This document shows positions 48,134-50,363 of a stretch of DNA of 64,000 bases, in pieces. The notes under the pieces are model-generated. The model did not search any database and was not told the origin of the DNA. It was given only the letters and a program-made list of their open reading frames with translations. Source of the stretch: Plantibacter sp. VKM Ac-2880. GTDB taxonomy: Bacteria > Actinomycetota > Actinomycetes > Actinomycetales > Microbacteriaceae. The stretch covers positions 1,753,668 through 1,817,667 of the forward strand of contig NZ_JADKSJ010000001.1 in assembly GCF_015351235.1 (NCBI RefSeq), read 5' to 3'. Within the stretch, counting starts at the first letter, position 1, and every line of letters starts with the position of its first letter. Position numbers and translations under genes: made by a program.

Positions 48134-48146
48134 GTGTCCGGGGTGG

Positions 48147-48152
48147 TACGCT
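48147..48152 (+). promoter_or_regulatory. -10 element of the leucine leader transcript
   Basis: TACGCT, then 6 nt (GGGCCC), then the leader ATG. The 17-mer GGTACGCTGGGCCCATG is identical to the SRAP-gene start region (40362-40378). No clear -35 is visible. Confidence 0.6.
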
Positions 48153-48158
48153 GGGCCC

Positions 48159-48203
48159 ATGCTGTCCGGGCTGCTCCTCCTTCCGTGCCGCGACGAGGCC
48201 TAG
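48159..48203 (+). CDS. leuL: Leucine operon leader peptide (14 aa)
   Basis: A tiny open frame, MLSGLLLLPCRDEA then TAG, starts 6 nt after TACGCT and lies 67 nt upstream of leuC. It has four Leu codons in a row (CTG CTC CTC CTT, 48171-48182) out of five in total, and its last codons run into an 11-bp hairpin. A short leaderless peptide rich in the end product of the downstream pathway is the hallmark of ribosome-mediated attenuation. Stalling at the Leu codons when Leu-tRNA is short would cover the 5' arm of the hairpin and keep leuCD expressed. Peptide and hairpin are seen; the mechanism is inferred. Confidence 0.82.
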   Translation: MLSGLLLLPCRDEA

Positions 48204-48224
48204 ACCCAGGCTCCCTCGTCGCGG
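48188..48224 (+). promoter_or_regulatory. leuCD attenuator hairpin
   Basis: CCGCGACGAGG (48188-48198) pairs perfectly with CCTCGTCGCGG (48214-48224); GCCT/AGGC inside can extend it. The 5' arm is formed by leader-peptide codons 10-14 and the stop TAG is in the loop. There is no U-tract. TCCTTC inside the Leu codons (48178-48183) is complementary to the leuC Shine-Dalgarno GAAGGA (48255-48260), so control at translation is also possible. Confidence 0.75.
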
Positions 48225-48270
48225 AGGTCGCTGACGCCTGTCCACTCATCGTTTGAAGGAATTCCACGAC

Positions 48271-49766
<1,496 letters not shown>

Positions 49767-49767
<1 letters not shown>

Positions 49768-50363
49768 TGGACAAGTTCACGACCGTCACCGGCGTCGCAG
49801 CGCCGTTGCGCCGCTCCAACGTCGACACCGACCAGATCATCCCCGCCGTCTACCTGAAGCGCGTCACGAAGACGGGCTTCGAGGACGCACTCTTCGCCGG
49901 GTGGCGTCAGGACCCGGACTTCGTGCTCAACCAGCCGGCCTACCAGGGCGCGAGCATCCTCGTCGCCGGACACGACTTCGGGACGGGCTCCTCGCGCGAG
50001 CACGCCGTGTGGGCGCTCCGCGACTTCGGGTTCGCCGTCGTCGTGTCGTCCCGCTTCGGTGACATCTTCCGCGGCAACTCGGGGAAGCAGGGGCTGCTTG
50101 CGGCTCAGGTCACCGAGGAGGAGCTGGAACAGCTCTGGGCGGCGATCGAGGCGGCACCGGGCTCGGACACCGTCGTCAACCTCATCGACCGCACGATCAC
50201 GGTCGGCGATCTCACGGTTTCGTTCGAGGTCGACGATTACACTCGGTGGCGGCTCATCGAAGGACTCGATGACATCGGGTTGACGCTCCGTAGCGAGGAG
50301 CAGATCACCGCATTCGAAGCCCGGCGGCCCAATTGGCTGCCCCGCACCATTCCCGTCAAGTAG
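49767..50363 (+). CDS. leuD: 3-isopropylmalate dehydratase, small subunit
   Basis: Small subunit (198 aa) carrying the mobile domain of the LeuCD enzyme. Seen: [19 protein letters not shown] at the N-terminus and [22 protein letters not shown], the substrate-recognition loop. The C-terminus [16 protein letters not shown] is normal. Translationally coupled to leuC; murA follows after 19 nt on the same strand. Confidence 0.96.

Follow-up and report, generated by a model that had tools for sequence, protein, structure and literature searches.

The closest described relative of the leader analysed here is the LEU element, which was delineated before leuA, in genomes that include that of Leifsonia xyli, as an open reading frame (ORF) with a run of leucine codons, a pseudoknot, and a base stem formed between the Leu codons and the Shine-Dalgarno (SD) sequence (Seliverstov, Putzer, Gelfand and Lyubetsky, 2005; PMC1262725). 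As recounted in that paper, mutations in the leuA leader of S. coelicolor had some effect, in a manner inconsistent with classical attenuation; for this reason its authors regarded leader-peptide attenuation as unlikely and proposed a regulatory protein, and the mechanism of the element was left open. The leuL1-leuA leader of S. lividans, MRFGLLLLSCRGEGL, is transcribed leaderless and is reported to have no typical Rho-independent terminator (PMC8079986), and leuA of C. glutamicum is presumed to have a leader, with four Leu codons in a row (PMC4046766). The ilvB leaders of Mycobacterium and Corynebacterium likewise place a branched-chain leader peptide before a biosynthetic operon (PMC13236596; PMC1262725; PMC10272879); they are described with terminator hairpins and U-runs (PMC13236596; PMC1262725), which the leuC leader lacks. 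The mycobacterial polycysteine leaderless short ORFs (Canestrari et al., 2020, cited in PMC9094748) share with the LEU type a leaderless regulatory ORF, a run of the sensed amino acid and an actinobacterial host, but the amino acid sensed is cysteine; cysteine biosynthetic genes under translation attenuation are mentioned in PMC13236596.

Set beside these systems, the design found upstream of leuC in Plantibacter sp. VKM Ac-2880 is not new; it is the LEU element of 2005, of which a second copy is now found at leuC. The upstream ORF with its leucine run is present as MLSGLLLLPCRDEA*; the base stem between Leu run and SD is represented by UCCUUC and GAAGGA, a pairing backed by a swap test although it is absent from the minimum-energy fold; a pseudoknot inside the base stem is supported at the level of sequence; and homology with the published leuA leaders is indicated by nine leuA loci, found by a covariance model, that encode the LeuL1 peptide of S. 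lividans. The genomic position differs, since the Plantibacter copy precedes leuC, whereas the S. lividans leader precedes leuA and the 2005 text deals with leuA operons and one transposase gene (PMC1262725). If structure is taken as defining, and the leuA position only as the way in which the element was found, the leuC leader is a member of the LEU elements. In the searched literature, which was mostly without subscription papers, no earlier report of the element at leuC or leuB was found, nor one at an MFS transporter in these searches aimed at leuC or leuB; the terms LEU element, leuA and pseudoknot coincided in PMC1262725 only, and leuB, leuC, leader peptide and pseudoknot nowhere together.

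Layout of the leader upstream of leuC

The features of the element are collected in Table 1; positions are those of the window, the whole stretch of 64,000 nucleotides that was analysed. A preliminary description had recognised a leaderless 14-codon ORF with four consecutive Leu codons 6 nt after a TACGCT hexamer, and a perfect 11-bp hairpin overlapping the end of this ORF. Both are present in the sequence: GGGCCC (6 nt) separates the -10 hexamer from the leader ATG, and the arms CCGCGACGAGG and CCTCGTCGCGG form 11 perfect pairs. The hairpin, which had been taken for the whole attenuator, makes up only a part of an element that extends as far as the leuC SD; the pseudoknot and the SD helix had been missed.

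Table 1. Features of the leader region and of the genes behind it, with the evidence for each.
Feature	Position	Strand	Basis
Extended -10, TGG-TACGCT (-10 TACGCT 48147-48152; TG 48144-48145)	48144..48152	+	sequence read
Leaderless leader ORF MLSGLLLLPCRDEA*, 14 codons	48159..48203	+	sequence read; family frame conservation
Leu codons 5-8, CTG CTC CTC CTT, proposed sensor	48171..48182	+	sequence read
Anti-SD strand UCCUUC (Leu7, Leu8, base 1 of Pro9)	48178..48183	+	complementary to 48255-48260; family swap test
Hairpin 5' arm CCGCGACGAGG, within leader ORF end	48188..48198	+	family covariation
Pseudoknot strand 1, hairpin loop, CAGGC	48207..48211	+	swap test
Hairpin 3' arm CCTCGTCGCGG	48214..48224	+	family covariation
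Pseudoknot strand 2, GCCTG	48236..48240	+	swap test
leuC Shine-Dalgarno GAAGGA, proposed regulated site	48255..48260	+	sequence read; swap test
leuC, 3-isopropylmalate dehydratase large subunit, ATG 48271	48271..49767	+	NCBIfam TIGR00170, E 2.1e-218, above cut-off
Probable leuD, small subunit, overlaps leuC stop	49767..50363	+	open frame MDKFTTVT..., named by sequence and place

leuC starts at the ATG with its GAAGGA; the TTG at 48253, which the ORF list offers as a start of leuC, is unneeded. Searches of the leader region against Rfam 15 returned zero family matches at the gathering score and, at E up to 10, PYLIS_1 alone, with 12.2 bits against a cut-off of 70 bits.

Conservation, translation and structure

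Conservation was assessed in 154 regions upstream of leuC from 149 genomes and 83 genera, drawn from seven genomes of the genus and from a family sample of 150, of which 146 have leuC; genome G106, which has a leuC match, was left out of this set. Hairpin candidates were present in 110 regions, of which 12 failed later steps; the 98 remaining leaders had entered by two conditions, a TANNNT hexamer 5-8 nt before the start and a short Leu run. A leuC start was assigned in 94 of the 98, and 92 of these 94 went into the swap and folding tests, two with a hairpin-to-start distance of 11 nt being omitted. The covariance model of the hairpin was built on an alignment of 84 of the 92 distinct leuC elements and one leuA element, the Plantibacter genome's own. 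The 80 best named relatives of Plantibacter LeuC, which overlap the 154-region set, belong mostly to Microbacterium, Agromyces, Cryobacterium, Herbiconiux, Leifsonia, Leucobacter, Curtobacterium and similar genera; since we take these genera to be Microbacteriaceae, the sampled family is read as this one.

The covariance model had sense-strand matches in 101 of the 154 regions (73 of 92 plus 28 of 62), most of the matched sequences having trained the model; these matches come from 101 of the 149 genomes and represent 57 of the 83 genera. The preliminary description had proposed comparing the region across Microbacteriaceae for a conserved short Leu ORF and a covarying hairpin, and both were found. 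By the same model, 48 of the 149 genomes are without the element at leuC (for example L045, L048, L078, L080 and L081). Among the 80 best named relatives, 57 leuC loci match; two Rothia records, one Brachybacterium record and, at leuC, nine Curtobacterium records do not. The named carriers at leuC are Microbacteriaceae, except L370, which is named only as Actinomycetota. Presence can differ within a genus name: Frigoribacterium sp. PhB160 (L326) is without the element at leuC, and Frigoribacterium sp. JB110 (L347) has it.

Several properties of the leaders bear on their translation. The TANNNT hexamer stands 6 nt (74 leaders) or 7 nt (24) before the start in all 98, where 5-8 nt had been the entry condition; the starts are ATG (64) or GTG (34), and 91 of the 98 have the extended -10 arrangement, with TG one base ahead of TANNNT. 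When no ORF was required, 98 of 100 hairpin-bearing regions still had TANNNT 6-7 nt before an ATG or GTG, and all 98 starts defined in this way by the promoter fell into the Leu frame, which supports the leaderless ORF of the preliminary description as conserved in the family. The distances from start to hairpin are 29 (61 leaders), 26 (19), 32 (15), 23 (2) and 35 nt (1) and differ by multiples of three; the distances from hairpin to leuC use all three frames (38, 28 and 28 of 94). Leader stop codons interchange (TAG 50, TGA 32, TAA 16). All 98 leaders have a run of 2-4 Leu codons, where a short run had been an entry condition, and the final codon of the run is CTT in 87 of them. CTT, which fits the SD complement, makes up 57.5% of the leader-run Leu codons (184/320), and 1.4% of the Leu codons in five genes of the window (2/143); compared directly at 34 loci, its share is 53.6% (60/112) in leader runs against 2.4% (15/623) in 540 nt of leuC. 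The frame, the spacing, the codon-unit lengths and the interchange of stops would be accounted for most easily by selection for translation. At the level of sequence, the observation is confirmed as real: a conserved and selected leader that is more than a chance arrangement.

The hairpin covaries. Across 85 sequences, 95.4% of cells are paired, 5 of the 11 pairs have changed on both sides, and 42 cells show two-sided changes, a number reached in none of 500 shuffles; the other 6 pairs never vary, and hence are silent on covariation. Two further helices, the CAGGC-GCCTG pseudoknot and the UCCUUC-GAAGGA pairing, are supported by swap tests of duplex energy, which leave some relatedness among the sequences. 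For the Leu run and the SD, native pairs were better than swapped ones, with z -4.39 in the full set of 92 sequences and -3.36 among 72 representatives, and none of 500 swaps was as good in either set; for the pseudoknot, between the loop and the 3' flank, z was -3.07 and -2.61, and 1 and 3 of 500 swaps, respectively, matched the native pairs. Five control region pairs per set gave z from -0.07 to +1.45. At leuA, the Leu run and SD gave z -3.53 with 0 of 500 swaps as good (control z -0.65) in 38 of 55 loci, 15 loci being without a leader by the strict spacing rule and two having too short a spacing. We know of no LEU-type pseudoknot at the polycysteine short ORFs.

By folding energy alone, the RNA 48159-48300 does not stand out: 136 of 200 shuffles fold at least as well (z +0.56), and its minimum-energy structure contains no Leu:SD stem. 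The evidence for the element therefore comes from conservation and covariation.

LEU elements at other genes

The leuA gene of Plantibacter (TIGR00970, 1.5e-254) is preceded by the leader VFTGLLLLSCRDES* and the same hairpin. The covariance model has matches in 145 of 150 genomes of the family sample, 232 of 297 of the order sample and 53 of 396 of the phylum sample. Among 76 loci examined, 55 lie beside leuA, 14 beside leuC and 7 beside neither; four of the 55 leuA loci, at 56-58% identity, are probably second leuA copies, and leuB is present at three of the seven. All 14 leuC-adjacent loci belong to Microbacteriaceae. In the order sample, at least two matches were present in 22 of 23 family genomes listed; outside the family, 209 genomes matched, 19 of them at least twice. 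The check outside the family covered 29 matches from 15 of these 209 genomes (14 of the 19, plus G747): 15 at leuA, 5 at a second leuA, 5 at leuB, 2 at an MFS transporter, 2 with nothing recognised nearby, and none at leuC, a zero that is no proof of absence because the model is probably less sensitive there. The leuC copy looks like an addition in Microbacteriaceae. In other families, leuA leaders were found by the model at E of about 1e-10 to 1e-5. The strict leaderless spacing of 5-8 nt occurs at 40 of the 55 leuA loci; it was not found at the nine that encode the peptide identical to that of S. lividans leuL1 (L189-L194, L197, L199 and L200).

LEU-like elements stand ahead of related MFS transporters in three families, at L259 (G125), L292 (G788) and L295 (G803), with the leaders MIGRLLRCRSRS, MTEWLILRRRVRT and MPQQLLLCCRSRC, respectively; the L292 and L295 transporters share 79% and 77% identity with that of L259, and this transporter is a candidate for leucine regulation. 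Outside the family, LEU-like elements also lie upstream of leuB, at L240, L242, L244, L284, L285, L290, L291 and L293, where leuB was identified by an NF002898 match at L240 and by tblastn to L240 at the other seven; their leaders often mix Leu, Ile and Val codons (for example MQRQVLLIASRGGVR and MTQRVVILIRRGEFR), and the element starts about 330-500 nt from the leuB match. Second leuA genes with a LEU-like leader of their own, such as MQRTLLLRRHGGA, occur in other genomes (L248-L257, L261, L283 and L286-L289), and in several of these genomes TTGTCTGAGGAGTTGTG lies ahead of that leader; G000:C1:497266-498924 was grouped with the second-leuA loci. The second leuA-like gene of the Plantibacter genome has no LEU-type leader, though TTGTCTGACAAGTTGTG, which is similar to TTGTCTGAGGAGTTGTG, is present.

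Two loci, L235 and L296, have leader-like ORFs and no recognised leu gene nearby; at L235 (G438), an element with the leader MSWQKLLVTRRSGV* precedes a 124-aa protein with zero Pfam matches at E 0.001. Nine further candidates (L236, L237, L247, L258, L260, L262-L264 and L294), with no leu gene nearby and E of about 1e-4 or worse, look like chance matches and were rejected as elements.

Proposed control of leuCD and alternative readings

A LEU-type translational attenuator that controls leuCD is the best explanation of these features, and we consider it probable. In translational attenuators of the erm/cat type, translation of a leader frees a sequestered downstream SD, and the co-variation of Leu run and SD supports a sequestration of this kind at leuC. 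We infer that RNA polymerase starts at or beside the ATG of the 14-codon leaderless ORF. With ample leucine, ribosomes would pass the Leu codons and leave at the leader stop; the RNA would then form the hairpin and the pseudoknot, UCCUUC would pair with the GAAGGA of leuC, and translation of leuC would be low. A shortage of charged tRNA-Leu would stall a ribosome on codons 5-8; since the Leu codons themselves are the anti-SD strand, this ribosome would occupy the strand that hides the SD, together with the start of the hairpin arm, and release leuC translation, so that the control would lie at translation rather than at transcription. The suggestion in the preliminary description that the leader may act on translation is supported. 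Its simpler design, in which the hairpin alone would be the attenuator and a stalled ribosome would directly cover the hairpin arm, is not supported; by a footprint estimate, a ribosome on Leu8 would cover the entire SD-pairing strand but only about 5 bases of the 5' arm.

In a folding model that leaves out the pseudoknot, mean SD openness across 92 sequences was 0.25 in the free leader, 0.47 for a ribosome stalled at the final Leu codon and 0.33 for one at the stop; the stalled value exceeded the free value in 78 of the 92 and fell below it by more than 0.1 in 6. Scanned by ribosome position, openness showed no peak of the expected kind at the Leu codons; a plateau extended from four codons before to five after the last of them. 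Within this model, the plateau would speak for occlusion whenever a ribosome is on the region, and not for stalling specific to leucine; the leucine specificity is suggested by the codon run and by the pathway.

The same leader peptide and hairpin might instead set premature termination between the leader stop and leuC, at a Rho-dependent site or a terminator without a U-tract. This reading is rather unlikely, even though the hairpin is strong and conserved, leader-peptide attenuation via a transcription terminator is reported for M. tuberculosis ilvB1 (PMC13236596), and control linked to Rho has been suggested for those cys leaders of Actinobacteria that have no terminator (PMC1262725). As the preliminary description had observed, no U-tract follows the hairpin in the window, and at least six T occur in the 10 nt past the hairpin in only 3 of 98 leaders, so that the intrinsic terminator of a classical transcription attenuator is not seen; moreover, the pseudoknot strand and the SD pairing lie beyond the hairpin and would be needless for a terminator.

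Another possibility, which we hold to be improbable, is a pseudoknot that binds a protein or ligand, with leader translation irrelevant and the Leu codons a by-product of the anti-SD sequence. The pseudoknot itself is supported by the swap test, and the 2005 paper favours a protein, with orthologs of ML1624 as candidates, and reports that the S. coelicolor Leu-codon mutants were unlike classical attenuation (PMC1262725). Such a reading leaves aside the preserved promoter-to-start spacing, the frame kept in 98 of 98 leaders, the codon-unit lengths and the interchanging stops, for all of which selection for translation is the easiest account. That the leader is translated and leuC depends on it through coupling or re-initiation, not SD occlusion, is very improbable; the leader stop lies just 67 nt ahead of leuC, but leuC has its own SD, GAAGGA, and in 92 of 94 sequences the hairpin lies anywhere between 39 and 94 nt from leuC.

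Beyond this locus, it is slightly better than an even guess that the LEU element has spread from gene to gene in evolution as a regulatory cassette and defines one leucine regulon in Actinomycetes (leuA, second leuA, leuB, leuC in Microbacteriaceae, and the MFS transporter), in which the sensing codons would everywhere be the strand that masks the ribosome-binding site. A stalled ribosome would then open the gene directly, with neither an antiterminator nor a regulator protein involved. If sensing and SD pairing do share the same codons, altering them would strike sensing and structure at once, and could therefore explain the confusing result in S. coelicolor. In Plantibacter, the short leucine-rich leader probably acts as a switch through which low leucine opens leuC to ribosomes. 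The leuC copy, with its own covariation and clear marks of selection for translation, makes the LEU question directly testable; it adds the isomerase step to those with leader control, and the LEU-like elements point to a leucine-linked transporter.
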